From Owenia fusiformis (lineage: Eukaryota > Annelida > Polychaeta > Sabellida > Oweniidae): 64,000 nt of DNA. The position numbers were made by a program, and so were the translations under genes. Of this stretch, positions 11,401 to 38,813 are shown in pieces (the first letter of the stretch is position 1; the number at the start of each line of letters is the position of its first letter). The DNA is taken from assembly GCA_903813345.2 (NCBI GenBank), contig CAIIXF020000006.1, positions 28,217,936 through 28,281,935 on the forward strand, written 5' to 3'. The notes under the pieces are model-generated. The model was not told the origin of the DNA, did not search any database, and saw nothing but the letters and a program-made list of their open reading frames with translations.

Positions 11401-14400
11401 TTCAGACCAATTTGTTATTTTTACATCTTGTAGATGTAAATGTCCTCTTTTGAATATTCATAGTTTAATTTGGGTAATATTTCTATATTTTTCATGAAAA
11501 AAATTATTAGCCCAGGAGACTGTTCTCCAAACCGAGAATCGTCCTTTCGCAAAATTTAGTTATTGATATGTAGAGATAGTCCATTAGGGTATGGTTATTC
11601 TCTTAAAAACAATTATGGTACAAATTTGGTACTTCTGACTATATAATGCTTTTTTTATACAAAACACTGTTCCACAACTGGATGACTCTAACTGCAGTTA
11701 GCTTCATTCAAGATGGTTGCCGAGATTCTTTCGTTTTCGATAAACCTCGGATTTCAGCTAAACTAAGTTGAATCTTGATTCCAAAAGTTTCGCCATGCAA
11801 ATTAATAAAACTATGATTGTATTCAACCACAAATGAATGCTCTAACACCCATAATATTAGAGAATTTTAAAGAAAACGACTTCACTTAGAATGACTCTAA
11901 CTGAAGTTGATGATCTACGCCATCATGACGTCATCATAAGTGAAGTCATTCTAAGTGAAGCCGTTTTCTTTAAAATTCTCCAATATCGCGGTTGTTTGAG
12001 CATTTATTTGTGGTTATTTACCATCGTAGCTTTATTAATTTGCATGGCGAAACATTTGGAATCCAGATTCAACTTATTTTAGCTGAAATCGGAGGTTTAT
12101 CGAAAACGAAATGATCTCGGCAACCATCTTGAATGAAGCTAACTGCAGTTAGAGTCATCCAGTTGTGGAACAGTGACAAAAGTCAATTATATTATTCTTA
12201 TTTTGACTATCAAATGATTTTCATATATCCGAATAACCATTATACTTGTTTTTGGCAAAGTAAATAATAGTAGGGATCACACAAGGATCAACGATATTGA
12301 AGATTGGTCATACTGGTATATGCCCTGCCGCTCTAAGATCAAGAGCAATGAATTGTGATTTTTCAGTTGAAACAGGGAAACAAACACATTATCATTATTT
12401 TGTTTAACATTTAACAAATAATTTTCTGTTAAACGTAGTAATTTTTCAAAACATCACTAAATATGAAAAAGGTGTAAATAAAGTAGATCCTTGTGTGAGC
12501 CCCATTATTATTTACTTTGACAAAAACGAATATAATGGTAAGTGTAATATATAGAAAACATTGAATAGGTAAAATAGTAATATAATTAATAACAACCGTG
12601 ACTTTTGCATTAAAATGGCATTTTAAGGTCAGAAATGTATAATTCTTCAATATTATTGTTTTTAATAAAAATGACCACACCCAAATGGACTATCATACAT
12701 ATCAATATCAAATCTGCCTCCTATTTCATATACTCGCTGCTATTATTTGAAAAAACATGATTTTTGTCAAACTCATCTTTTTGCCGGTTGCACCTTGGGG
12801 CAAGCCGTTTAGCCCTTTCGTGTCACTTTTTTGAGTGCAGACAAGTAAAAATGAATAGTCAATGAACCAATCTATAATGACTATGGGTCAAATCATAGTA
12901 ACCTACCTCAACATCAGTTAATGGGATTTTCTGGAGTTTTGGCGCACACTATCATATTGTAATATAGCTGCCAATATTTTTCAACCAGAATTGGGTAGCA
13001 GTGTCTGCACCAAATAAATGGTGATATTTTGTCTTGTTAATGACTTGTTTATTATCATATGTAAACTTAACTGTATAATGTACAATTTTAGTGTCAAATA
13101 TTGATGGGTCCCAAGTATACACTGACAGTCTATCCTGGAGTCAATCTCTGGAAGTTCGTACTCCAATATTTTTCGGTAAACTTCATTCGGAGTCCATCTT
13201 GGAGGTTTGGAGAGATAGACCAACACAGCTGCCATCTTTTAATAGGTATGAAGTTTATTTTACCTTATGCTCATGAACTGGATAATTAAAATGTATTACA
13301 TGTATTTGCAATATTATTTCAGTATGCAGAACTTTATCATGAACAAGGTGTTGGTTGGGCGAGGTGGGCACTTATTAGGGGGTGGGCGCTGAATACATTA
13401 GTATACATTTTCCATTGTTATTTCAGTTTCAATGGCTGTATACAGAACCTTACCATAAATGAGGTGTTGGTTGGACTCCAGACATCCTTGTCATCAACTG
13501 TGGGAGCTGATCCCAGTATGGCTATCCCTGGCTGTCCTTACGAGGACTCTTGTTCACAGGAGGATTGCTCCCAGGGGACATGTGTTCTTGGCTGGGACAA
13601 ATATTCTTGTGATTGTGGGTCTAATTATATTGGGCCTCTGTGCTCTGAAGGTGAGTTGTTTTAAAAACAATATTTTACACATAAACGAGGCAATACTTTT
13701 GTTTGTATGTGTCACAGAAAAAACTGAATCCGAAATGATATTGTAGCTATTTGTCCCATTGTCTACTGGAGTAAAGGCAGTTGATCTAGTAGTACAACAG
13801 CCAATTTAATACTACAATAGAATATTTGGTATTTTGCAATTTCAATTTATTTATTTTACAGCATTGCCAAGCACATACAATGGTATCTCCAGTTATACTG
13901 CTGCCACCATAGACACCCAGAAAGTGACTTTTGGCAATAGTGGCCATATTGAATTGAGAACGAGGCAAGGTCAAGGTCACATTCTCTACCAAGAGTTCAA
14001 CTCGGGGCCTGGGAGTGAGGTAGATTACATGGAGTTAAGGTTACAAGGGGGACAAATCCAGCTTGAGACTAGCTTCAATGGAGGTGAGTAAAAGTCTTAG
14101 CAAGCCAAGGCAAAAAACGAGAGGCTAAAATCAAATCAAATCTTATAGAAAATCAAATCATACATGAAAAATGTGTGAACGCTGCTTATGTCTATACTTT
14201 TCCTATTAGTTTAATCTGTGTTTGATCTGATAATCTTTTGTGACCTTGGAGTTTTTAATTACAACTTTCACATTATTCTGATCAATAAAATAGACAGATC
14301 AGATGTGACTTGTTAAATGTTTAAATATTACAAAGGATGAAATATGTTGATTGGATTGATAGTTTGATTGATGTTTAGTAAACACTGAATGTGCTTAATA

Positions 14401-17400
14401 TAGCTTTGGCAGCATATCAGGCCAAAGGAAATTTGTTCTTGTAGCAGTGGTTCATTAATCCTGTATTTTAAAGGCCCCATGTAAAGTTCCATCTCTCCTT
14501 TGTATTGTATTTTATATGTTGTAGTTTTACTCAATTTTATTGGTCAGAATGATCCAGAATTTAATTCTTTATAAAGTTTTTAAAAGTGGTTCGGAGAAAT
14601 ATGTATTTTACTATACATGTTCTCACCAGTGATGTGGTACTTGTAAAGGTGATAAATATAGTTTTTAAAGTTAAGCATAGGAAACTATTGGAATTTAATT
14701 AATATCATCTTTGAGACATTGTAGCTTTATAATGTGATATGACAAAATTGTAATGGTTGAAGATATGCATGAAAAAGAAAAAGGGATTCAAAAACAAAAT
14801 ACCTTTTTGAACTTTTTGAAAAGAAATATCCTAAACAATTTCTGAAGGCTAAAGAATTTGAATTTTAATTCAAGATTTTTTTCTGTTTCAATTTCTACAA
14901 ATATTTCATTAGTTATGCAGTGTGGTTTTTAAAGATGTGAGAATATTGTTCTAGAATATTATGTTTATTGTACGATTGACCCATTTTAAACAGCATGATG
15001 TTAACCTAGATATCAAATTACTGACATCAAATTAATTTGATATTTGAAATATTATTTATTTGATTGATGTTACTATGGTAATGAATGTCACTAATAATCA
15101 TAATGCTAATAACTGACATCTTTCACTTCTAGAAAAAATTCCAGGGGGTCACATTTTACTTTGGGCCAAAATCACTTGAAACATGCTCAAAATGGTGAAA
15201 AACTACATGATTATGAATAAATTGGTCTGGGGGGGGGTCGCTCCAAACCCAATTTACTAAATTACTGGTAACATACAGGGATACACATACAGCATCATTA
15301 AGTCCAGGGAACTTTAAAAGAGTCTGATTCTGATGCAGAAAAAACATGGTATTTTGAACATCAATTGGATTTTAATCTATTAAAGTTAATGAAATGAAGC
15401 GCTCCCTTTGGGACACAATTAGTTCACAATTCATTTCAGCTGTGTATAACACATATTAAACATTTTAAACACTGTTTTCTGGCCGACTGAAATTTTATAT
15501 ATGCTTAGCTATGTGTGAATAATTAAATGTATAAAACGTGAATATAGGTTATTAATTTTTATTTTTGATAAAGCTCAATTACCTTATGGGAGCTGTAAAC
15601 TTTAAGTGGATGTCTGCTTCCTAGACTTACAGGAACATCCTTCATTCAAAGGTCATCATTTATTCCTCAATTCAATTCAATTCAACTCAATTCAAGAAAT
15701 GAAATACTCTGGATGGATGATGCAACAGGAATATTTCACCTTCTCTAGGGTTTTAATCTCTTGACTACCCAGTATGACGAGATTTCTCGTCACCTCAGAA
15801 ATGACCTTGAATCCCAGAGGGACGAGAAAATCCGTCACAAAATTTTTCACAAAAATTGCTCTTATTTGAACAATTTTTATCCAATTTACACAAAAATTGT
15901 TTTAAAACGTGTAGAAATGATCTCTGCTATATAATTTGACTAAGTTGAGCATCTTAAGTTGTATAGGTATGTAGTAAATGTCAAAAGGTGGCAAAAATGA
16001 AAAAATCCTCTGGTTTCAACCGATTTTAGAGCCTGGGATTCATGAGGTTAACATAAGATTTTAAATCAGGCATTTCATATAAAAGTTTTGAGATGATTTT
16101 TCACACTTGTTCATTTTTAAAGAGGGTATTGGTGTTGTACCTGCTCATTTATATAAAGAGTTTTGATATTATGTCTATTATTTTCAAATTCCATTAGTTC
16201 TTAATACAGAGAGTTTTCAGGCGATAGTCCGAACTAAACTGACGTGCTGTCCATATGAGTCTTTTACTTTCTTCCAAGGGGTCTTTATTTAATTGGGAAC
16301 GATCTGCAGCTAGAAATTCTGTATGCGGCTGAATATTCAGACTAGACATGTAGATTATGATTGATAAAGCTGATTGGTCGTATCTGTGGTTAAGCACATG
16401 TGACCCTCTCGGGGAAATACAGGAACGTTTTAAAGCACAATGTACAAGAGGAGTTAGTATATGTTTAACAGCTGTGCTATTGTTAACATAACCTTGGATA
16501 CCACCAGCAAAACTGTATTTATTAATAAATCTTGATTTTGTGACGTTAAAATATGAAAACATCCCTTTATGGGTTTTCATTGTCATATCTGTGTCTTGGC
16601 CTTGAACGAAAAAATATCCATCTTTAAGAATGAGTCTTTTTATTGGGCCAAGAGGTCCTCTGATTACTGACCCAGCATCTGAATAAAATATTGCACCATA
16701 TCGACGAACTGCATCTTGTAGAATTATAGGTTTCCAAGCGAATCCATTCCTAGATCCCAACAAAATTCGTGGAGGGGTTGTCTTCGGCAGATTGAGAGAT
16801 TCTACATTGCACCATGTGTGTACATCTTGTTTTTGTAACAAAGTCAACCCAATATCATACACTACTATTTTTGTCCTCGGTTCCCAGAAATGTACGGATG
16901 CAACAAATTCAGTTAATCCACGGAAAAACTCATTGCTGGCAGCCGTAACTATGACAACATCCATTGGTTTTAGATCAATAGACTTTAATTCATTGGTAGT
17001 TTTATTTCGATGATTTGTAGCCAGTTTAAATGTTAAAGAATCCACTTTACTATTTTTGTGGTTGTCATGGTAATCCATTGTCTGTAATCCATAATCTTTA
17101 TAATCCATCTGATAATCTTTTTCTTTTGTCATTTGTGAAATTAGTATGACAAAAGACAATGGGACTAGAATATATCCCAGAGGATGACATTTTTGAGCTC
17201 TAAAACTCCTAGAATATTTTCTCCTTATATTCATATTTATTCCAATTCATAAAAATGAAGTATACTTTTAGCATTTGGCAAACTTTATATGCCAGTAGAC
17301 AAGAACATTCAGGCAGACAAAATACATTTGTTAACCCGATTTGTAAATTCTTTCTTTTATATTTATTTGCTCAGCATAACTGTGCAAAAACAGTGGCTCT

Positions 17401-20400: not shown

Positions 20401-23400
20401 TCAATGTAAAAATTAGCATTTTGATCAAAAAATATTGGTATCGAAATGATTTTGATTAAAAAACATTGGTATTAAAATCATTTTGATCATGAAACATTGG
20501 TATCAAAATCACATTCTGTTTTACAGCTGATACCCTATATAATTTAAAAGCTTTGAAAGCAATTATTGTGAAATGAAATGTACATCATTGAGTTAATGAC
20601 AGCAGAGTCACCCAGTGTACACATTACTATTACACAAGTATGTCATTCAGTTTTTTTATTTAATGAATAAAGAATCTTGGATCGTTCTTTATTGGAAATT
20701 TAAGAGCACAAGTACTGACTCATACACGTAATGCACAAGGGTAGAACCTGAGTTCATTATCAGGATGGGTTAATAAATATGTGCATGAATGCTTTTAAAT
20801 CATGAATGATACAGCGTTCTTTATTGTTGCAATTCATATATACTGTCTTTCCTTTTAAAGCAGATATGAAATGGTATTTTTGACCTAAAGGAATCAATAT
20901 AATTTTTTGATAAATGTATTTGGACATGTTTTCTGCAGTATTGTGAAAATTATTTCACTCTAATGATCCTTATAGCTGCTTAATAAGCAATATTCGAATA
21001 GGTTGTGACGTTATTGGGCCCCACATGATCTCTCACTGGTCCCCATATGGCCCGTTTTAGTCCATTAAATCATGACGTCATAATGCCAAGATGTTTTGTT
21101 ATTTGTTTACACAACAATCATATGGTTGCCCTGACTTTTGTGATTACTAAGGAACCAATGAACCAAAACTATATATTATGTATGACGTTACTAATCACGT
21201 GGGGGCCAATCTGATTGATCAGTTAATTTTATTACATTATTTATGACCATTAACAGTTATCTAACATTTCTGAAATACTGAAATACTCTAAGCTGATTGG
21301 CTGAGATACACTTGGCATATTTATGAAAAACTAATGAACACCAGATAGAGTAAAATACTAAATAAGTTATACAGTGTAAATGTGCATTGGAATAGCTAAG
21401 AATGCAATGAATTCATATATACATGTATATGTTAATAAATTGTGTGTTGGTTAAGTGTCCTAGCAATCAATATGCTCCTGTCTGTTACCCAAGTACCTCT
21501 TATTTCTAAGTACTTCATACTTAGAAGGAGTGGAATCTGCAGGTTTATCTTTTAAATCTAATGTTGAATAAATGTTTTCCTCATTTCCTACCTCATCATA
21601 TGGATTCTCTTCATTAGCATTGGCCTTATTGCTCTTGTTGTCATCCTTCTCATCACCATTCACATTAACATAGCCCCCATCATCTTCCCCATGTTCATGG
21701 GGCCCATTATCATTGTTCACATTTGCATAGCCCCCATTGTCATTGTTCCCATTTACATAACCTCCATTAGCATTGCCCTCATTGACCTGAGTCTCTCTTG
21801 TTCCTGAGTCTTGTGGATTTTTCGCTCTTGGTTTCATCTCAGTTGCATTTACTTTTGCATCATCAGTTGCAGCTTCTTGTCGATCAACATCCTTCTTGCG
21901 TCTGTATATGAGGCATATCACAAGAATGGTGATCAGGGATCCCAGATATATAACACCCATAACAACTGCTATGATACGGAGGTTCACTACCTCTTGTTTG
22001 TATTGATGAAGTTCTGTTTGTTTCGTGTCAATTGTCGTCACTTCTTGATTCATAGTTGATGTGGTCATTTGTGTAGTGGGTTTTGTAGTAGTTGATAGTT
22101 CTGGTGTTGTGGGTTTTAGAGTTGTTGTGGGTTTTGAAGTTGTTGGTTTTGGTGTTGTAGTAGGCCGTGTGGTTGTAGTAGGCCATGTGGTTGTTGTATG
22201 TTTTGCCGTCGTCGTGGGTTTTGGCATTGTTGTAGGCCTTGGAGTTGTTGTGGGTTTAGGAGTTGTAGGTCTACTACTTGTGTCATGATGTAGGGCATAA
22301 ACAGCAAACTGATCGGTATTTCTATATAACTGTAGGTCATACTCCCCATTTGAGTATATAGCACATCTTCTTAGATAACAATTACCTCTCCTGTAATTGA
22401 TGACATTAGCCCCTCTCCAGGCCTGTCAACTGTCCCGCAATTTGCGTATTTGTCACGCATTTGCTGAAGAATTTGAAGTCACGCCAGTTTTTTTTGCGTG
22501 ACAGAAAATGTCACGCAAAATACGCATTTTACCTGGTAATTGTCAAGCAAAAATATTTCTGTAGAATTTTTTTCGAAATATGTTTACGATACGGTAAAAA
22601 TACGAACGCCGGAAAAAACCGAACGCAATTTGTTCGGATTTGTCACGCGAATCCCGTATGTGTCACGCATGTTCATTGGAAATTTTTAGTACCTCCCCCC
22701 CCCCCCCCCCCCCCCCCTGTTGACGACATCGCGAGCGTAGCGAGCGCGAAAAATTTGAGGTGTTCAAAGTTTGGCAAAGGTGCTCAAACTTTGGCCAAAG
22801 GTGTTTAAAAGTTGGCCAAAGGTGTTCAAAATTTGGACAAAAGTGTTCAGATTTGGACTTAGGTGTCCAACATTTTGAAGTCACTCATATTAGGTGGTCC
22901 CAAGTTGACAGCCCTGCCTCTCTGACATGCAAGTATCATGCAATGCCTTAGGTCATGGGTAGTATAATATCCTAGAGAAAAACATCCAGACATTAAACAG
23001 TTCTGTCTAAGTCTTTTGATTACAAACAGTGATTCTCCACAGTTTGGTGTTCCTGGATACGGCAAGACAGATATCCGATTGGTATAAGTATTAGAAAAGC
23101 AAGTGTTGCTATACATTGCCCAATCTGTGCCTTCTTGATTGCCCAAACATCGATAGCTTCTCACTGGGGCAGATCCATAGAATAAATTAGATCCAGATTT
23201 GCAGAGAAAATCTTGAACATTATTATTTGGTGGTGGAAAATATCCAGTCAATGAGCACGATGGGCGTGTAGTAGAGAATGATGGTCCAGGTATTGCAGGA
23301 TATGTTGCACCGCATTTCTCTGAATGAGAAAGACTGTATGTGATCACAAACCTTTGTGTTTGTTGGAAGTTGAAATTATAGTCCTCAATAGTTGGATTCC

Positions 23401-26400
23401 ATGAACAATGATATATGTTACATATTCGAGATGATGAACTATATGTTATAACATTTCCAAATCTTCCACATGCCTCTCTCATACAATCATGTACATGCGA
23501 AAATGTTAATCCACTGTTAATATAGTTACATCCAGGTGAAACATTTCTGCTTGTATCCCACGTTCTCCTCATAAAATACGAATTGTGGCATCTTGGTGTG
23601 TTTTGGTGAGGCAGAGCATATGATACACCCCATTCGCCACGACCCCGCCATCTATAGTCCCAATCATTTCCATTAGAGCGACATCTATATATGAAACAAT
23701 GTCGGGTTCGTCTAAAGTGCACGACATTTCCACGGAGCTCGCAAGCTTTTTTGAAACATGGTTCATGGGAGTTGACAGGCCATGGTGTGTATAGTCTCAA
23801 AAGTTCTGCACAATTCGGATAATGGTGTTGTCGGGAAACAAGCACAAATTTACCAAAATCACAATCATCTGGAAGTAAATCATTCTTTATTTGTAAATAT
23901 TGTTGGTGGCAACATTTCAATGATCTACAAGTTGAACTGTGACTGTCATCACTATTTCAAATCAACTATTTTAGGCTCCCACCACTATAAGCCTGTGTGA
24001 TCTAGTATCTATTTTACCTGTTATCACCTTGTCCAAGTTATTCCAATTTTTTAAAAGGGGTTGTTGGTTCTTTAAATCAAAAAGTTCTGTTTGTATTCGT
24101 CTGAATTCACTGAAATATTTAATTGTAAATTCTTAGGATAAAGGTACTAGAAAAACATATATTCTAAAAACCGTATACACAAATATAATAATGCTCTTAG
24201 TTGTTCTTCAGAGTTTTACCTTGTGCTTTTGAATTGTCTTCATTTTTAGCTGTCGTTAATATAGTTGATGTATTTTGTGCACGAGATACAGGCACAACAC
24301 ATGCAGCAAGTATGAGCCAAACAAAATACGACTTCATAACTTGGAATGATTGTATGCATTTATAAAAAGTGTCACCTTGAATATTATGCTATGTTATATC
24401 AGGCCTTTATCTCAGTCCTCAGATAATCTATGATGTATTAATTAGTGTATTATTGAGAGGGGCTCAATAAATAGTTATTTAGTAATAGTAGAATATAACA
24501 CTTTGATGAGCATTAAGTACAGTTAGTTAGAAATCATTGAGGAAGTACAGGAATAATGTTAACCCGTCAATTGAAATTTAATCAGTCTGATGGCTCAAAT
24601 TATTCAGACAGATAGCTGAAATTATAAAGTCTGGTGGCCCAAATTGTATAAACTGTTAGCTCAAATTATATAGGCTCATGGTTTAAATAATACTGGCTGG
24701 TGGCTCATTTATATAGACTGATAGCTCAAATTATATAGGCTCATGGTTTAAATAATACTGGCTGGTGGGTCAGTTGTATAGACTTATAGCTCAAATTATA
24801 TAGGCTCATGGTTTAAATAATACTGGCTGGTGGCTCATTTATATAGACTGATAGCTCAAATTATATAGGCTTATGGTTTAAATAATATTTGCTGGTGGGT
24901 CCGTTGTATAGACTTATAGCTCAAATTATATAGGCTCATGGTTTAAATAATACTGGCTGGTGGCTCATTTATATAGACTGATAGCTCAAATTATATAGGC
25001 TCATGGTTTAAATAATACTGGCTGATGGCTCAGTTATATAGACTGATAGCTGTAATTATATAGGCTCATGGTTTAAATAATACTGGCTAATGGCTCAGTT
25101 GTATAGACTGATAGCTAAAATTATACAGGATGATGGTTTAAATAATACTGGCTGGTGGCTTAGTTAAGACTGATAGCTCAAATTATATAGGCTCATGGTT
25201 TAAATAATACTGGCTGGTGGCTCAGTTATATAGACTGACAGCTCAAATTATACAGGATGATGGCTCAATTATAAATCTGATGGCTCAGATTGTACAGGTC
25301 GATGATTCACACAAGTGGGGGTATAGGACCTCTGTCTAAAAGAATGTTATCAATTTAACAAAAACAGGATATCCCTAATTATGCTTTTCAATTTATATAC
25401 TCAATGGGAACTTAACCACAACAAAATTTAGCAAATCACGCAAGCTGTAGCGTCTAATGACAGAATGATAGCCCAATCATGAATTTTGATGGTTCAAATT
25501 GTTTGATGATTCATATGCAGGTGAATGAAGTAAGGGCGTAGAACTCCAGTCTGGAAAGAATATTATACATTTAACAAATAAAAGATACTAGTTTTACCCT
25601 ATGAAAACTTAACCACCAGATATCAAATTTCCAAACAAAATTGAGCACCTGTTGATCTATCTATACGCAAAGGACGATTCTCGGTTTGGAGAACAATCTC
25701 CTGGGCTAATAATTTTTTTCATGAAAAATATAGAAATATTACCCAAATTAAACTTTGAATATTCAAAAGAGAACATTTAAATCTACAAGATGTAAAAATA
25801 ACAAATTGGTCTGAAGCAGGGATAATGCTCATTTAGATCGATTCAATAAAATACAAGTCTCGATTTGGGGAAAGAAGTTCAATAGTGTACTGCGCTAATA
25901 TTTTTTTTGCGAAAAATCTAGAAATATTACCCAAATTAAAGTATGACTATTTAAAAGAAGACATTCAAATCTATATTATGTGAAAAAATCAAATTTGTCC
26001 GAAGCAGGGATAATGCTCATTTAGATTGATGAACTTCGTTCTCCAAACCGAGAATCGTCCTTTGTATGTGGATAAAATGTCAGTTTGACATTTTTGAATG
26101 TTTGTACTGTCAGCTGGGCAATTAAACCTTTCAGTTGAGAAAATCATAAAAGATATGTCATTAGAAAGAGAAATATTAAATGTAGTTTTGTAATTTCAGT
26201 TTCCTATGAAATATACTTTTACCAACAAAGACTGATTTTCATGTGTTTGTCACATCAAAGCTATCTTAAGATCTTTTCTTTTAGAAGTAAAGTTAAAAGC
26301 ACATTTTTTATTTGAGACCTGTTACCTGTCTGTCAACAGATCATCTTCTTTATTGAGCATTCCCATCTTTGACATATCTAGTAATTATGACCTTTCAGCA

Positions 26401-29400
26401 CTCATATCATATAGTTTCACTATGAAAGAATGACATGCAACGTCTCTATTAAACTTAATAAAAAATCAATGTTTTCAAATAAAATTTTATATCAAAAATG
26501 TATATTTTTGATTTATGTACTGTACTACTTAAAATCAAAAGCTAGATATGAACATCGCACGACATGTTTTTTATGGAAATTTTTTATTTATATGGTATCA
26601 TTTATTTATAAATGTCAACATTTATTTTGGATTAATGTATTTACTTGGTCAGACCTCTCATTTGCTAAACTGTCAAAATTTAAAATGATATTCTTCCACT
26701 CCAGGCCCGTAGCCAGAGGGGTTGGGGGGTACGGGGACAAGCAAATCCCCCTGATCAAAAATTCTTTTAAAATCATGCAGTTTTTCACCATTTGGAGCAC
26801 TCTTCAAGTGATTTTGGGCCAAAATGGTCAAATGATCCCCTGGAATTTTTTAAAAAGTGAGCCCCCTTGGCAAAAGCTGGCTACAGGCCTGCACTCTAAA
26901 CGTCAACCTGCTGTCTTGGTTTACAGTTTCGGATATAATTTTGAACAGTCAACCACTTGATAAACCAACAAGTATTACAAATAAGAGGCCCATAGCGTAC
27001 CATAGTTTGCTAAGGGATGTTCAGGTTTTTAAGAAATCCAGGGAATGTTCTTTGACAATTCTTTCTGAGACTCAATCGAAGAGTGCTCAAAATTGTTCTG
27101 GCCGGGGGGGGGGGGGGGAGGGGGGTTACTCGAGCCACCCCCTCCTTGCAAAACATTACTAAATCATAACCAATTATTGTGTATAAGATATAGCAGCATA
27201 AAAAATAGTTTGGCTAAGCCAGAATAAAAAGAACATTGCCATCTATCTGTACTCAGTATAGAAAATGAGAGTTTTTGAAAACTTACTTTATCCATCTTTA
27301 ATTTATGCTTTCATAAGAACATTGGCTTTAACCTTTTGATCCTTTTTAAAAACAAGGACTCAGATTTTTTGTCTTACTCCAATATGTTATTTTTTCACAA
27401 GTTATGTTTCAAGAAACAAAAAACTTTTGATTGACCCAAAACATACTTTGTGATCGCAGTTAAAAGAAGTCGAGTAGTCTCAATCTCCTGCAATGACGGA
27501 TTGGATTTAACCTTTTGATCCTTTTTAAAAACAAGGACATAGATTTTTTGTCTTAATTACTCCAAAATGTGTATTTTCACAAATTATGTCAAGAAACAAA
27601 ACATACTTTGTGATTGCAGTTAAAAGAAGTCGAGTAGTCTCATCCTCCATCAATGACGCACAATGGCATACTCTTTCTTGGACAACAGATGGCACTAATA
27701 TCTTGACACGTGTTGACTTTAGCGCAAGTACTGTACCAGTCAACTATGCATTCTTCAAAGCAGGAAGGGACTATACTGTTGCTGTGTATGTGGCTGGGAG
27801 ACCATTGGCTCCAGGTTGGTTTTGTAGAACTCATTTAACATGTATATTGTTTACCTTAGACTAGGTCAACAATATAACATATTTTAGAAATGAAATTTTG
27901 TTTTCTGTTTAAAGTGGCAATGTACGGGGTGGTCCCAAAAAATGGGACTCTAATATTTCAAATAATAATATTGATTTTCTTGATGAAAACATATCATATT
28001 TATATACCAGTGGGTAAGGAATTTACTTAATTTGGTATATCATTAAGTTGTTGTAAAATATCTGTGGTAATATTTACATTTCTGAAGTATTATCATAATT
28101 ATACTTTATACAATTTAAGTAAAATTGCTCAGTATTTTAGTGACATATTCGTTTATAAAATGCAAAAGATGAGATATTAACCTATGATATGTCTTTATAT
28201 TTTCAGGCTCATCAAGCCCTGTGATTGGTCACTTCAAGGGCTGTTTACGTAATCTAAGATTCAATGATTACGCAGTACATATTCATGAGAATAACCATTT
28301 GGGAGTGAAACTAACCAATCAGAACGTTAAACATGGTTGCCATGGTGATGATGTGTGTTTTGAAAACACATGCCCTGTAAATGCTAACTGCATCGATGTT
28401 TGGAACCTGCATGAGTGTAGCTGTAAGATGGGCTGGACTGGTGAAAGTTGTAACATTAGTATTGATGATTGCGTCACGAACAATTGTAAAAATGGCGCAA
28501 CTTGTATTGACCAGCATATGAATTATACATGCGCTTGTGTTTATGGATTTGATGGATTTTATTGTGAGAATGTTATAGACGCTTGTGAAACTCAACCTTG
28601 TAATAATGCTACAAGTCAGACCTGTACTGCATTATTCCCTGTTGACTATGCATGTACTTGTCACGATGGCTGGACGGGGAAAAATTGCACTGAAAATTTT
28701 AATGAATGCGAGAGTAGTCCATGTAAAAATGGTGGAACTTGTACAGATTTGATTAATGACTTTAACTGTACTTGTGATTCGGATCATTTTGGACCAATTT
28801 GCCAGTTCACATATATTTGCGCATCGTTACCATGCTACAATGGAGGCAGTTGCTATGGCAAAGAAGACAATACAAACTATACATGTCAATGTACAGATTT
28901 TTATCTAGGCAGGCAATGCCAGACTTTTAATTCATGTTTCTTAAATGAATGCGCCAATAATTCAACATGTCTTTTAAATGGCACAGATTACACCTGCAGT
29001 TGTTTACCTGGTTACTATGGTAACAGATGTCAATTTGTGGATTTCTGTTATTATGAGCCATGCTTAAACAGTGCACTCTGTAGCAATGAGCCTGATACTT
29101 ATAATTGTGCCTGTGGGGTACATTATACAGGAAAATCCTGTGAAACTCCCATCGATAAATGTGAGATAAACAATTGTGAAAATGGTGGTAGCTGTTGGTT
29201 CAATATCACAAATCCAGAAACGACTTATACATGCGAGTGTATTGTAGGCTACCAGGGGTTGCTATGTGAACATGACATCAATGAATGTGACTCATCTCCA
29301 TGCCAAAATGGTGCAACTTGTATCGAAAGTAACTCATCACCAAAGGAACAGTTTGTAGCTGGTTACCAGTGCCAGTGTGCTCCTGGTTACTATGGTGACC

Positions 29401-31461
29401 AATGTGAAAGTGAGATTAATGAATGTGACAGTTCACCATGTCTTAATCAAGGCAGTTGTCAAAACTTAGTTAACTCGTATAAATGTGAATGTGTGAAGGG
29501 GTACGAAGGGACACACTGTGAGCAGGATAAAAGAGGATGTACTTCAAACCCATGTCAAAATAATGCTCCTTGCGCAGAAAATCTTGACAAAACATACTCA
29601 TGCGATTGTCTCCTTGGTTACACAGGAGCTCTTTGCGAGACAAATATTGACGATTGTTTGGGAAATAATTGTGTTAATGGTGCCACATGTTATGATTTAA
29701 TACAAAACTATACATGTTCCTGTCTACCTGGATATACAAACACATACTGTCAGGATATTAATGATACTTGCTACAGCCAGCCATGTTACAACAATGGTGT
29801 ATGTTCTTATGTAGGAATTTGTACATGTAGTGATATTGTCTCACAATGCGGTTGGCATAACGAACAGTGTCAACGAGAAAAGTGTGTAGCTAGATCTGAA
29901 TGTACGCTGCGCGAAAGATCATATACTTGTGACTGTACCGATACTGGTTACTATGACAACCGATGTGATGTTGACGTCAATGAGTGTGACATCATAGGGA
30001 CGTGCATCAATAATGGCACCTGTGAAAATACACCAGGAGGATTTCTATGTGACTGCACAGCGACTGGGTTTACTGGAACGCACTGTCACATAGATCTTGA
30101 TGAGTGTTCACTCCTGACTGAGCCTTGTTATAATGAAGGTAAAATTCACTTTGGAAACACATCCTTTTGTTCACAACCAAATAACTACATTCTAAAAAAT
30201 CTTTATCCAGGTATCACATGAAATAAAATGTTGCAACCAAAATGCTGTCATCCAAAATTCAATTGTCATTCAAATATTGTTATTGTACATTATGAAGTAC
30301 AATTGAAACTCAAAAATTGTTTTTTTATTCTCGATGAAGTAGATGATGATAAATTATAAAAATAGATTTTTTGTCAATCATTTGCACCTTTTAGTTGTTC
30401 TTATTCAAATTGTTATTAAATTATTATTCATTGTTTCAGGTACGTGTGTTAACAACCTAGGAAGCTACGGATGTATATGTGCCCTGGGATGGGAGGGCAG
30501 AGATTGTGGCCAGAACATTGATGATTGTATCAACTCACCATGTCTTCACAATTCAACATGTAGGGATGGGTAAGTTCTGCCTTTAGTAAATCAAATATGC
30601 CATTTTATCAGAGTGAATTATAACGTGCTTTTGAGCAAGATTTCTCTTGATTTTATTTTTAGTGTGAATCAGTTTCTATGTGACTGCACAAACAGTGGTT
30701 ACTATGGCGACAGGTGTGAAACAAATGTTGATGAGTGTAACAATACAGAGACAGAGACACCTATATGTGAAAATGGGGCTACTTGTGTCGATACAGTTGG
30801 GAGTTATATATGTGAATGCACATCTGCCTATACAGGTAAGGGTCTTAAAGAGTAGCTAAATATTTTCAACAATTGAAAATGGAATAATCCAATCATACTA
30901 TTCTTTTATTTAGAGCTTTTACTAGTTCATTTTACTAATACAACTTATTCTGTTAATTCACAAAAATTATAAACAGAAAGTAACATGGATCAAAAACAAA
31001 ACAAGAGATATTTTTTTATATTTAGACTGACAGTAACACAAAATAAAAAAATTCTGACAAAAAAATCTGTGTCTGCAATGTTAAAACAATTTCAAGTTGT
31101 ATGATATAAAATGAAATATAATATAATACTTTACATCTATTTCTAATTGAAGATGTTAACCCTTTGTATCCGTTCTGTAAAGATTAACCCTTTACTGTCT
31201 GTTCCAGGTTTTAACTGCGAAACTCTTATAGACCCCACCTTCGAAGAGGTTTCCCAGCAACAAAACACAGCCGCCATTGTTGTTCCCATTGTCATCATCC
31301 TCGTCTTGCTCCTGATTGGTGGAATATATGCAGCATATTATATCAAAACGAGGCGGAGATATACTGGAAAATATGGACCATCCATTGCAGAGGCCAATAC
31401 TGTATACTCTATCCCATTGGATAAGATTTTGGCGAGTGATACCGATGAAAAACTCATTTGA
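63..31461 (+). CDS. crb: Crumbs homologue, apical polarity transmembrane protein (5' partial, 16 exons)
   Basis: Exons, all phase-compatible: 63-293, 820-933, 1919-2032, 2326-2615, 2893-3024, 3472-3675, 3943-4263, 4706-4865, 13092-13245, 13427-13650, 13862-14083, 27620-27814, 28207-30138, 30440-30569, 30663-30835, 31208-31461. They encode about 1,616 residues: four to five calcium-binding-type EGF repeats, laminin G 1, EGF, laminin G 2, EGF, laminin G 3, about 18 EGF repeats, a membrane span and a 40-residue tail. The tail has a GKYGPS motif (FERM-binding type, compare GTYSPS in fly Crumbs) and ends in DEKLI, a variant of the ERLI PDZ ligand bound by PALS1/Stardust and PAR6. Family knowledge: Crumbs marks the apical membrane of epithelia. 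The signal peptide and first exons lie upstream. The tail makes the family call secure; the number of C-terminal EGF repeats is unusual. Two introns carry large transposons or nested genes. Confidence 0.9.
425..492. repeat. ATTC-rich short tandem repeat
   Basis: About three copies of a 25-bp unit made of ATTC tetramers and TTGTATGT, in the intron after the first visible crumbs exon. The rest of that intron shows nothing else. Confidence 0.7.
1126..1302. mobile_element. G/C-run inverted-repeat element (family near GTAGCCAGG)
   Basis: It begins GGCCTGTAGCCAGGATTTCC with a run of G and ends with a run of C followed by TGGCTATGGGCCC, so its ends are imperfect inverted repeats. The middle, with CTCAAAATGGTGAAAAACTG, recurs at 15125-15245, 26703-26892 and 46830-46930. 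It is a short non-autonomous repeat family scattered in introns of this window. Confidence 0.65.
2461..3675 (+). CDS. crb: Crumbs laminin G domain 1 exons
   Basis: The end of exon 2326-2615 plus exons 2893-3024 and 3472-3675 encode a laminin G domain. It begins near the I-S-F-E-L strand and ends with the usual F-D-G-I-A-G-C-I-K signature. Between the preceding EGF and this domain there is a basic R-R-K-R stretch (2526-2537) followed by Q-A, which fits a furin-type cleavage consensus. Introns within the domain are phase 0, unlike the phase 1 introns between EGF modules. Crumbs laminin G domains are extracellular; their ligands are poorly defined. Confidence 0.82.
3943..14083 (+). CDS. crb: Crumbs interdomain EGFs, laminin G domain 2 and start of laminin G 3
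   Basis: Exons 3943-4263, 4706-4865, 13092-13245, 13427-13650 and 13862-14083. The first holds a six-cysteine EGF and the start of laminin G 2. That domain closes with the F-N-G-C-I-Q-N-L motif in exon 13427-13650, which then carries a further EGF ending in P-L-C-S-E. Exon 13862-14083 begins laminin G 3 (G-H-I-E-L strand). Phases match throughout: 4865 phase 1 to 13092; 13245 phase 2 to 13427; 13650 phase 1 to 13862. The intron between 4865 and 13092 is 8.2 kb and is almost filled by transposable elements. Confidence 0.82.
6139..6272. repeat. Near-perfect 134-bp hairpin
   Basis: The arms begin GTTATGCACTGGGAGGTTTT and end with its reverse complement (one or two differences), with the ATATCCCGAGGGATAT palindrome repeated inside each arm. 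It shares its termini with the repeat at 7647-7785 and with one end at 32900-32949, so it belongs to a dispersed family. Confidence 0.8.
6618..7641. mobile_element. 1-kb inverted-repeat element rich in TCGAATATCAC
   Basis: The ends TTTATCCCATGGTTGCAAGG and the complement CCTTGTAACCATGGGATAAA form inverted termini; subterminal copies of ATCGAATATCAC follow on both sides. Two internal hairpins (about 6785-6895 and 7200-7312) have GC-rich loops of the form GAGTGAGCGTAGCGAG. No reading frame of note. Confidence 0.7.
7647..8309. mobile_element. Foldback element with GTTATGTACTGGG and CATAGGATAAA ends
   Basis: It begins with a 139-bp hairpin (7647-7785) whose arms contain TATGCATATCTACC, then TTTATCCTATACCAAGTAGA, and ends with AACTTGGCATAGGATAAA. 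A related copy in reverse order lies at 32716-32949. Between the ends are short inverted AGATATGG motifs. Confidence 0.6.
9948..10915. repeat. Degenerate array rich in AGGTCA half-sites
   Basis: Roughly 110-bp units repeat CAAGGTCAATATCTAGGTA, TTGGCGTTTTGAGGC and GACCCTTGGTGACCCATGAT with many changes. Each unit contains several AAGGTCA or AGGTCA hexamers, so the stretch holds dozens of them. It lies inside the 7.9-kb element in a crumbs intron. Confidence 0.7.
11153..11547. mobile_element. 395-bp MITE, copy 1
   Basis: The inverted termini read AAAGGACGATTCTCGGTTTG and continue through GAGAAC. Inside is a diverged direct duplication, each half with GAGCATTATCCCTG and TTTAATTTGGGTAATATTT. A second copy of exactly the same length in the opposite orientation lies at 25669-26063. 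Confidence 0.85.
11665..12175. mobile_element. 511-bp foldback element with CACTG ends and 6-bp target duplication
   Basis: The sequence is one long hairpin: CACTGTTCCACAACTGGATG at the left is mirrored at the right end, with arms of about 240 bp and only scattered differences, centred near 11925. ACAAAA flanks it on both sides (11659-11664, 12176-12181), a candidate target duplication. Confidence 0.82.
13310..13365 (+). pseudogene. Decayed duplicate of the start of a crumbs laminin G exon
   Basis: TATTTCAG followed by a sequence like the start of exon 13427-13650 lies about 100 bp upstream of the real exon. The copy lacks the first 12 exon bases but then matches about 31 of 38 bases, ending GGTGTTGGTTGG. 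Read in frame it runs into TGA soon after, so it cannot replace the exon. Confidence 0.65.
15125..15245. mobile_element. G/C-run short repeat copy
   Basis: It contains the family core (TTTGGGCCAAAATCACTTGA, CTCAAAATGGTGAAAAAC) between two G runs and is related to the copies at 1126-1302 and 26703-26892. The rest of 14084-16190 shows no gene, only AT-rich DNA and a small ATTCA microsatellite near 15668. Confidence 0.5.
16194..17234 (-). CDS. Single-exon DUF1647/glycosyltransferase-like type II membrane protein
   Basis: 346 residues with no intron, antisense inside a crumbs intron. An N-terminal basic stretch is followed by a hydrophobic span (about residues 20-35), giving type II topology typical of Golgi enzymes. 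The lumenal part has V-V-I-V-T-A-A-S-N (about 93-101), [17 protein letters not shown], and Y-S-D-A-G-S, a likely nucleotide-sugar/metal motif analogous to DxD. This pattern matches what I recall of the DUF1647 family of animals (worm, amphioxus); the biochemical role is not established. Several N-x-S/T sites are present. The start was chosen as the first Met before the membrane span. Lack of introns could mean retrocopy origin. Family call fairly confident, function inferred. Confidence 0.75.
   Translation of the reverse strand: MNIRRKYSRSFRAQKCHPLGYILVPLSFVILISQMTKEKDYQMDYKDYGLQTMDYHDNHKNSKVDSLTFKLATNHRNKTTNELKSIDLKPMDVVIVTAASNEFFRGLTEFVASVHFWEPRTKIVVYDIGLTLLQKQDVHTWCNVESLNLPKTTPPRILLGSRNGFAWKPIILQDAVRRYGAIFYSDAGSVIRGPLGPIKRLILKDGYFFVQGQDTDMTMKTHKGMFSYFNVTKSRFINKYSFAGGIQGYVNNSTAVKHILTPLVHCALKRSCISPRGSHVLNHRYDQSALSIIIYMSSLNIQPHTEFLAADRSQLNKDPLEESKRLIWTARQFSSDYRLKTLCIKN
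17690..17832. repeat. Hairpin with GGAATATCCTGTCCACTGAC arms
   Basis: A near-perfect inverted repeat: the arms carry the 27-base stretch beginning GGAATATCCTGTCC around a small loop CGAGGCTGCAGGCCGAG that is itself partly palindromic. It is flanked by TAGTGACTGCCATTGAGG-type repeats and probably forms part of a foldback element spanning about 17640-17840. A related diverged region (TATTTCCCCGAAGGAATATCC) continues at 18160-18670. Confidence 0.75.
18890..19258 (+). mobile_element. Short retro-inserted sequence with poly(A) tail and 13-bp target duplication
   Basis: GAGAGTGAATGAA occurs at 18877-18889 and again at 19259-19271, immediately after a run of A (about 18). An AATAAA signal lies just upstream of the tail (near 19224). 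This is the signature of reverse transcription primed at a nick, so the 369-bp body is probably a 5'-truncated copy of some polyadenylated RNA. No coding potential seen. Confidence 0.78.
20415..20512. repeat. Three copies of a roughly 33-bp TTTTGATCA...ATTGGTAT unit
   Basis: Three adjacent diverged copies with TTGATCAAAAAATATTGGTA as the model. Otherwise 19272-21459 contains no gene that I can support, apart from a G/C-run repeat at about 19950-20085. Confidence 0.6.
21460..24337 (-). CDS. Mucin-stalk receptor with cysteine-rich repeats and tyrosine-motif tail; exon interrupted by a transposon
   Basis: Exon 1 is 24337-24220 (signal peptide, cleavage likely after S-R-A; ends phase 1). Exon 2 starts at 23868 (acceptor TTCCAG). 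Exon 2 encodes three to four repeats of about 90-100 residues with the pattern C-x3-AC-x5-G-N-V-I/V-x-Y/F-x7-C-x-I-x-x-C, vaguely PAN/apple-like. A Thr/Pro stalk, one membrane span (about 22000-21910) and a tail follow, ending at TAG 21460. A 499-bp insertion (22418-22916) interrupts it. Removing the insertion and one CCTCTC duplication leaves 2,022 coding bases, exactly 674 codons with the frame intact. The tail has Y-V-N-G, Y-A-N-V, Y-V-N-V, P-Y-D-E-V, I-Y-S-T-L and S-K-Y-E-V-L. Family not recognised. A receptor role is inferred from topology and motifs; no ligand can be proposed. Confidence 0.72.
22418..22916. mobile_element. 499-bp element inserted in the receptor exon, 6-bp target duplication CCTCTC
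   Basis: Its termini are CAGGCCTGTCAACT and, on the other strand, CAGGGCTGTCAACTT. CCTCTC flanks it at 22412-22417 and 22917-22922. Inside are repeated TGTCACGC octamers, a long C run (about 22693-22720), a GCGAGCGTAGCGAGCGC palindrome and four diverged copies of AAGGTGTTCAAA..TTTGGCC. No transposase. On the minus strand a GC donor at AG|GCAGGG and an acceptor GGAG|A within the duplicated hexamer would exactly restore the reading frame if spliced. Confidence 0.8.
24585..25300. repeat. 65-bp higher-order tandem repeat upstream of the receptor gene
   Basis: About ten copies of a 65-bp unit, itself three related segments of about 22 bp: GATAGCTCAAATTATATAGG, CTCATGGTTTAAATAATACT, and GGCTGGTGGCTCATTTATAT. 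Copies start 65 bases apart at 24721, 24786, 24851 and 24916. It lies about 250 bp upstream (5') of the start codon at 24337. Confidence 0.85.
25669..26063. mobile_element. 395-bp MITE, copy 2 (opposite orientation to copy 1)
   Basis: Same inverted ends (AAAGGACGATTCTCGG) and same length as 11153-11547, with the body reading as its reverse complement and about one in fifteen bases changed by eye. Both copies sit in crumbs introns. Confidence 0.85.
26703..26892. mobile_element. CAGGCCCGTAGCCAG inverted-repeat element
   Basis: It starts CAGGCCCGTAGCCAG and ends CTGGCTACAGGCCTG, 15-bp inverted termini with one mismatch, with G-rich then C-rich flanking runs inside. It is the cleanest member of the short family seen at 1126, 15125, 42702, 45080 and 46830. 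A further G-run fragment lies at 27020-27145. Confidence 0.75.
27327..27660 (+). repeat. Tandem duplication covering the end of an intron and the start of a crumbs exon
   Basis: Two adjacent copies (27327-27506 and 27507-27660) each contain TTAACCTTTTGATCC, CAAGAAACAAA, ACATACTTTGTGAT(C/T)GCAG and the first 20 or more exon bases starting TTAAAAGAAGTCGAGTAG. Only the downstream copy continues into the full exon. The upstream copy keeps an AG acceptor but its exon part is cut off after ATGACGGATTGG. Confidence 0.82.
27620..30138 (+). CDS. crb: Crumbs end of laminin G 3 and giant EGF exon
   Basis: Exon 27620-27814 carries the I-N-D-A-Q-W-H strand of laminin G 3. Exon 28207-30138 completes it ([10 protein letters not shown]) and continues without an intron through about 16 EGF modules over 1.9 kb, in contrast to the one-module exons at the N terminus. 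Most modules have canonical six-cysteine spacing and several have calcium-binding I-N-E-C or I-D-D-C starts. One (near 29770-29890) is divergent, with extra cysteines. The exon ends in phase 1, inside an EGF finished by exon 30440-30569. The donor after 27814 is GTTGGT, weaker than the others. Confidence 0.88.
31208..31461 (+). CDS. crb: Crumbs transmembrane and cytoplasmic-tail exon
   Basis: The terminal coding exon has acceptor TTCCAG at 31202-31207 and stop TGA at 31459-31461. It encodes the last EGF cysteine, a short stalk, a hydrophobic span of about 24 residues rich in I, V and L, a stop-transfer run K-T-R-R-R, then a short tail. The tail carries the Y-x-G-K-Y-G-P-S FERM-binding region and the C-terminal E-K-L-I PDZ ligand. 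In known Crumbs proteins these recruit FERM proteins (Yurt, Moesin) and the PALS1-PATJ complex. The K in place of R in the terminal motif is conservative. A possible poly(A) signal AATAAA lies at 32053-32058. Confidence 0.92.
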
Positions 31462-37128: not shown

Positions 37129-38813
37129 CACGCGGTAGTATCTCTTCGGGACGTATCGAAACCACTCCGTCCCGAAAAACCGTTAATTTGAATTTAAAAC
37201 CTACCCCAGTGTTTGAAAATCAAGGATTGTGAGTCTCACACTTCACCGTTTTTCTTCAAACTTGTTCCGTACAAAGCTTCACAGAAATACCTTTCAGTCG
37301 ATACATTGTTTTCGTGTACAAAGTACCTCGTTTTAGCGGCGTTTTGGTCCCCAGCTGTGAGATAAAGCAAATTTTCATAACTTTCAACTGTAACTCAAGT
37401 TATCTCGCCAGTCTTTTACCCATTCTCGCCCATAATGTCAGAATGGACTCCCATTACAACCTTCCATCGCTACGTCTTGATTTTTGGGCATCAAACGCAG
37501 CAGTTTCTAAATCATCCACACATCTCTTCAAATTTGACCGATACGTCCCGTCATCTTCCACTACGCCCCGCCGAGTCTATCACTATACACGTAGAGTTGC
37601 ATTCTAAAACAATTTGTCCATCCATGTGTCCGCTTGTAGGTTGCCATTGTCGATTCTAAATACCAATCGGATTGTGTTTTAAGATTTACCCATTCTTGTC
37701 CATTTTCAATATACCTATAATAGGGTGGTCCAAAATCTCCCTAAAATTTAGATTTCCCGATATTGCAATATAGAGATTTTAATTACTGAACAATTGAAAA
37801 TATTTTTAAGAAACGTTTAAAGTGCCCTATCCTTGAAAAAATGTTAAAATGCGAAAGGATGGGTGATGTCAATTATATTATTTTCAGCATAACGTTAGAA
37901 ACATGTACATCATTTTATAATATGGTACACGTTTCATAATGTAATCCAATGGAATCATACAGAAGAAAGGTTGACACACAACAGTTAAAATCTTTATATT
38001 ACATTATCACACCAAGTCAGTAGATGTTGTTTATATACCAATTAGTGTTGTATGATGATGCATTCTTTATATGAATCTAGAAACGTTTTTGTGCCAATAT
38101 TGCTCAATTTTGATAACATCTCCGTTATTTTGAAATTAAGCGTGGCAAAGTTTCCCGATGGATTTAGCTAAAAAAAAAAGTGGTGCCTGTAGGGTTATTG
38201 AAAATCATACATGATGAAGAAAAAATACATATTCCTGAAATACAACAGTTTAATTTTAAGTTATACTTAAGACTGGTGTCAAGAATCGACCAAGGCAAAC
38301 CTATGTAAAATTACACAACGATGAACAAAATGTTTTAGAATACAACTCCACGTTTGTAGTCATAGACTCGGCGGGGCGTAGTGGAAGGTGACGGGACGTA
38401 TTAGTCAAATTTTAAGAGATGTGTGGATGATTTAGAAACTGCTGCGTTTGATGCCCAAAAATCAAAACGTAGCGATGGAAGGTTGTAATGGGAGTCCATT
38501 CTGAAATTATGAGCGAGAATGGGTAAAAGACTGGCGAGATAACTTGACTTACAGTTGAAAGTTATGAAAATTTGATTTATCTCGAAGCTGGGGACCAAAA
38601 CGCCGCTAAAACGAGGTACTTTGTACACGAAAACAATGTATCGACTGAAAGGTATTTCTGTGAAGCTTTGTACGGAACAAGTTTGAAGAAAAACGGTGAA
38701 GTGTGAGACTCACAATCCTTGATTTTCAAACACTGGGGTAGGTTTTAAATTCAAATTAACGGTTTTTCGGGACGGAGTGGTTTCGATACGTCCCGAAGAG
38801 ATACTACCGCGTG
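37129..38813. mobile_element. 1.7-kb element with inverted repeats of about 460 bp
   Basis: The left arm 37129-37585 and right arm 38340-38813 are near-perfect reverse complements, from CACGCGGTAGTATCTCTTCG inward to CGGCGGGGCGTAG. TGAAT flanks both ends (37124-37128 and 38814-38818), a candidate 5-bp target duplication. The 750-bp centre is AT-rich and noncoding. Short open frames in the arms are mirrored and have no known domain. Confidence 0.82.

Follow-up and report, generated by a model that had tools for sequence, protein, structure and literature searches.

A receptor-like gene apparently antisense to a Crumbs-like gene

The window (the whole 64-kb stretch of DNA that was analyzed) carries, at positions 21460-24337 of the minus strand, a gene that looks like a single-pass, animal cell-surface receptor. 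It appears to lie antisense in a large intron of a plus-strand gene (about 2292-31461) that we take to be Crumbs-like, with an exon chain judged by eye; this gene contains EGF repeats recognized by Pfam (28188-30218) and a tail ending in EKLI (31147-31461). Also within its span, a single 350-codon frame on the minus strand (16194-17246) matches Pfam DUF1647 above the cut-off (28.6 vs 25.7 bits). Elsewhere, an inverted repeat at 37129-38813, with 501-nt arms that are 96% complementary and 683 nt apart, is probably another mobile element. Rfam at gathering thresholds and tRNA scans of the 64-kb window gave no matches.

The receptor-like gene appears to consist of 2 exons. Exon 1 (24220-24337), the start of which resembles a signal peptide on inspection, is followed by a GT-AG intron (24219-23869); the intron ends were placed from the reading frame and GT/AG dinucleotides, and among 9 AGs tried as the intron end, a single one (exon start 23868) gave the full frame. 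Just upstream of exon 1 lies a 65-bp tandem repeat (24631-25263; 9.8 copies, 89% matches). Exon 2, also on the minus strand, spans 23868-21460 and is divided by an inserted element into a part with cysteine-rich repeats (22917-23868) and a part that completes the last repeat and continues with a Thr/Pro-rich stalk, a membrane span, a tyrosine-rich tail and the stop codon (21460-22417). As the DNA stands, these parts are read in 2 separate minus-strand open reading frames: the cysteine-rich repeats in one that extends from stop to stop over 22859-23956 and ends in unrelated sequence, and the repeat remainder, stalk, membrane span and tail in another (21460-22425). In the protein that results from joining them, hydropathy peaks at residue 507. 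The tail (21460-21900) contains 3 GGYxN motifs (GGYVNG, GGYANV and GGYVNV), ENPYDEV, and 2 YxxL motifs 13 residues apart (NIYSTL and SKYEVL). YxN and YxxL are characteristic motifs of phosphotyrosine signaling, and the tail looks like a signaling tail of this kind.

Database searches gave the receptor no family. Pfam returned none for the part before the insertion and only 9 matches, all below the cut-off, for the part after it, while a sequence search of the PDB returned only 4 weak antibody matches (E 0.51-0.92). No relatives were present in viral_contigs, a viral collection that says little in this respect, and the structure predicted for the receptor without an alignment had a mean pLDDT of 33.7, too low for use.

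A 499-bp transposon interrupts the last cysteine-rich repeat

The element that divides exon 2 is a non-autonomous DNA transposon of 499 bp (22418-22916). Its ends are CAGGSCTGTCAACT-type terminal inverted repeats (TIRs) of 14 bp, namely CAGGCCTGTCAACT on the plus strand (22418-22431) and CAGGGCTGTCAACT in the minus-strand reading (22903-22916), which match at 13 of 14 positions. Flush with both TIRs are 2 copies of CCTCTC (22412-22417 and 22917-22922), identical in 6 of 6 positions, which form the target-site duplication (TSD). Internally, the element holds 5 copies of TGTCACGC (4 plus, 1 minus; 22451-22668), which occur nowhere else in the window and could possibly be transposase-binding repeats, as well as a 23-bp poly-C tract (22695-22717) and a 21-bp tandem repeat of 5.7 copies (22758-22875), both on the plus strand. 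No frame in it is of transposase length, as stops leave at most 129 consecutive codons open. No second copy was found in the 64-kb window; searches of viral_contigs, genome_contigs and phages also gave no match, which says little, as these are viral or prokaryote collections.

To put this structure in context, we counted all pairs of TIRs with at least 13 of 14 matching positions, about 150-700 bp apart and flanked by a perfect, non-palindromic 6-bp direct repeat. The window contains 2 such structures, one of which is the 499-bp element, and no such structure arose in any of 30 resamples generated from the window with a first-order Markov model. The other is a 511-bp element at 11665-12175, whose inverted arms measure 232 nt (91%) and which is flanked by ACAAAA at each end; its ends differ from those of the 499-bp element, and it is another transposon-like insertion.

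We find it likely, but not proven, that the 499-bp element is a non-autonomous member of a hAT6-like group. Because neither a transposase nor another copy was seen, this assignment rests on the length of the TSD and on the end sequence. The CAGG end of the element fits the CAGG-type ends that are typical of hAT elements. These elements usually have 8-bp TSDs (PMC3942097; PMC12730594), and hAT6 is recorded in PMC12730594, with reference to Kapitonov and Jurka 2007, as a hAT group whose TSDs are 6 bp long, the length found here. Thus, hAT6 and our element share a 6-bp TSD and short TIRs, but the latter has no transposase and no full-length relative that we could find. Two other groups with 6-bp TSDs fit less well: IS3EU, for which the fungal set described in PMC12730594 has TAYGG ends and TIRs of more than 30 bp, and Dada, which is described as targeting small-RNA genes and of which Dada-U6 and Dada-U1 lack TIRs (PMC3706591).

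The insertion point splits codon 357 and separates the residues AC from NV in the last repeat. When this repeat is read over the empty site, it aligns with 2 other repeats of the protein, and the element therefore sits within a formerly coding exon. The alignment with repeat R1 scored 58, against at most 39 in 2000 shuffles, and that with R2 scored 48, just above the maximum of 45 in its 2000 shuffles; region R3 showed no similarity (score 20, equaled or exceeded by 123 of 2000 shuffles). Further downstream, the frame is open for 321 codons; when its last 949 bases were resampled 2000 times, every resample contained a stop. A sequence-only reading of this DNA had claimed a 499-bp element with a CCTCTC duplication in the last cysteine-rich repeat of a receptor, and had claimed that deleting the element plus one duplicate restores the frame. 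Each of these claims was borne out, with the match of the repeat confined to R1 and R2, and the deletion left one uninterrupted frame that encodes 673 residues and, with the stop, counts 674 codons.

A probable loss-of-function or soluble-form allele

If the element is not spliced out, translation runs into an in-frame stop at 22859-22861 on the minus strand and gives a product of 375 amino acids, the last 18 of which are wholly encoded by the element, preceded by one codon split with it. This agrees with the earlier expectation of a stop about 20 residues into the element, and also with that of a product without stalk, membrane span and tail, as the 375-residue translation ends upstream of all three. 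Since the lost tail bears the YxN and YxxL motifs, loss of signaling would be the expected effect. The premature stop appears to lie in the last exon of the gene, and a polyA-like AATAAA is found at 21233, 227 bases past the normal stop. Junction-dependent decay may therefore spare the mRNA, and a secreted fragment could be made.

We consider it likely, with good but not full confidence, that the locus records a recent insertion of a non-autonomous cut-and-paste element, most like the hAT group with 6-bp TSDs, into exon 2 of a receptor-like gene, and that this element is not efficiently spliced. A small element of this kind would have inserted recently into the exon of the single-pass receptor-like gene; judging from consensus scores, the transcript would not be efficiently spliced at the element, and the allele would then yield a secreted fragment of 375 residues, if it yields anything of use. 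The allele probably segregates, with loss of function or a soluble receptor form as its effect. Points against this explanation are the missing similarity of R3 to the interrupted repeat, the R2 score that barely exceeds the shuffles, the low splice scores of the gene's own first intron and the 8-bp TSDs usual for hAT elements. As the downstream frame is still open, the insertion should be of recent date, unless intact alleles have been kept in the population or splicing takes the element out of the RNA. If unspliced, the locus would clearly exemplify a natural knockout or truncation of a receptor whose tail bears tyrosine motifs, which is of modest interest.

Splice signals at the element and alternative explanations

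The main alternative is that the transposon has become an intron. A GC-AG junction from GAG/GCAGGG to GGAGAG/GG (slashes mark the splice points) would remove exactly the element and one duplicate: the donor AG/GCAGGG takes its G from the TSD and its CAGGG from the element end, the acceptor AG lies in the second duplicate, and the spliced product would be the 673-residue protein. The sequence-only reading had proposed this junction, and its arithmetic is exact, with both frame and sequence restored and the frames on both flanks still open; a coding insertion that leaves the frame intact after exact removal is also what is expected of an introner. Among the introner families described in PMC9860276 are some that have TSDs and TIRs and in which GC makes up as much as 50% of the donors. 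We scored the splice sites with approximate textbook consensus weights, which capture sequence signals only. The GC donor scored 5.70 when the penalty for GC was omitted, placing it in the top 0.24% of the 3,756 GC dinucleotides of the window, and dropped to -0.93 once GC donors were given a prior of 1%. The acceptor scored -4.49, and of all 6,490 AGs in the window, 63% do at least as well. This acceptor is poor in pyrimidines, with a fraction of 0.35 vs 0.70-0.75 in 4 inferred acceptors of the Crumbs-like gene (the 4 best-scoring of 6). Its last 60 nt hold a single branch-point-like YTRAY motif, only 13 nt away from the junction, which is not the usual distance; by inspection, other AGs intervene. 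An exact GT/GC-AG junction can also arise by chance: when each hexamer of the window was considered in both orientations, element ends like these would create one in 6,740 of 255,976 cases (2.6%).

For comparison, the best sites near each of 5 by-eye exon ends of the Crumbs-like gene scored 1.77, 3.01, 8.22, 6.51 and 3.08 as donors, and those near each of 6 by-eye exon starts scored 5.03, 7.42, -2.05, 0.53, 6.09 and 6.46 as acceptors (2 of them weak), values that are biased upward because each was chosen as the best within its stretch. The receptor's own intron 1 has a donor of 1.77 and an acceptor of 0.10, both low, and weak sites may therefore work in this genome. Overall, the splice signals speak against efficient removal of the element, and an intron born from the transposon is possible but not supported; we regard it as improbable. 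Of the 2 outcomes that had been put forward earlier, a transposon-born intron or a loss-of-function allele, the former is weakened by its poor acceptor and by the availability of exact junctions by chance, and the latter holds as the better reading. Still more doubtful is the specific idea that the hAT-like CAGGG end, by serving as the donor from position +2 to position +6, turns any insertion after AGG into an instant GC-AG intron, with this locus as an animal introner at its first step.

Splicing could also be imprecise, with a different donor, located in exon 2 or within the element, joined to a different acceptor, so that an in-frame receptor altered in its last repeat results. We paired 17 donors, lying between the stop and a point 150 bases ahead of the element, with 25 acceptors (up to 200 bases after the element). 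This yielded 90 open in-frame combinations, but the summed scores were negative for all 90. With the 1% GC prior, the exact GC-AG pair ranked only 9th among them. The best pair (GT at 22991 with exon start 22390; sum -1.01) entails a net loss of 96 bases and, on inspection, deletes pre-insertion residues including repeat cysteines. We hold this explanation to be very unlikely.

Little credence can likewise be given to a retained soluble-receptor allele, in which the truncated, secreted ectodomain would be a useful decoy kept by selection. The signal-peptide-like start, the position of R1, R2 and region R3 upstream of the cut, the loss of stalk, membrane span and tail, and a stop apparently in the last exon ahead of the polyA-like AATAAA all fit with it. 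However, the cut at codon 357 falls within the core of the last repeat, which then continues into 18 residues unrelated to it and is likely to misfold. Finally, an assembly or haplotype artefact, by which an element from elsewhere was wrongly joined, is hardly credible: homopolymers such as the 23-bp one in the element are common trouble spots for assembly, but a perfect TSD flush with both TIRs is a hallmark of real transposition.

Comparison with known transposon insertions and transposon-derived introns

Exon-breaking transposons and transposons that became introns are both known kinds of phenomenon, and the former are commoner than the latter. For maize Ds, a de novo intron with observed splicing was reportedly described by Giroux et al. 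in 1994. That case resembles ours in that a hAT element in an exon can be removed by splicing near its ends, but splicing was reportedly observed there, whereas here it is only arithmetically possible.

Transposon insertion is one of 7 proposed mechanisms of intron gain in the review PMC3443670, which lists 35 transposon events in Oryza, Drosophila, Oikopleura and Zea, gives no in vivo demonstration as of 2012 and refers to Giroux et al. 1994 for maize Ds. Introners and transposon-derived introns have thus already been reported in some animals (PMC9860276; PMC3443670). Our own literature searches gave no paper that, judged from its listing, concerned mollusc introners, no match by phrase search for MITEs spliced as introns, and, with the terminal sequences of the element as text, only papers unrelated by title. 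If the element is spliced, the new part would be the GC donor shared between the target and a hAT-like end, and the locus would represent a datable intron gain from a transposon in an animal, with a donor built jointly by target and element.

A close published parallel is that of the introners, which PMC9860276 describes as present in 175 genomes, with TSDs, TIRs and GC donors in some families. That account concerns groups of similar annotated introns, whereas we have one copy with a poor acceptor, read from DNA sequence alone. In their features, the two are nevertheless alike: introners are described there as mostly non-autonomous and DNA-transposon-like, some with a TSD and TIRs, as is the element analyzed here, and their splice sites are sometimes recruited from the TSD and include GC donors, comparable to the candidate junction in the receptor-like gene.
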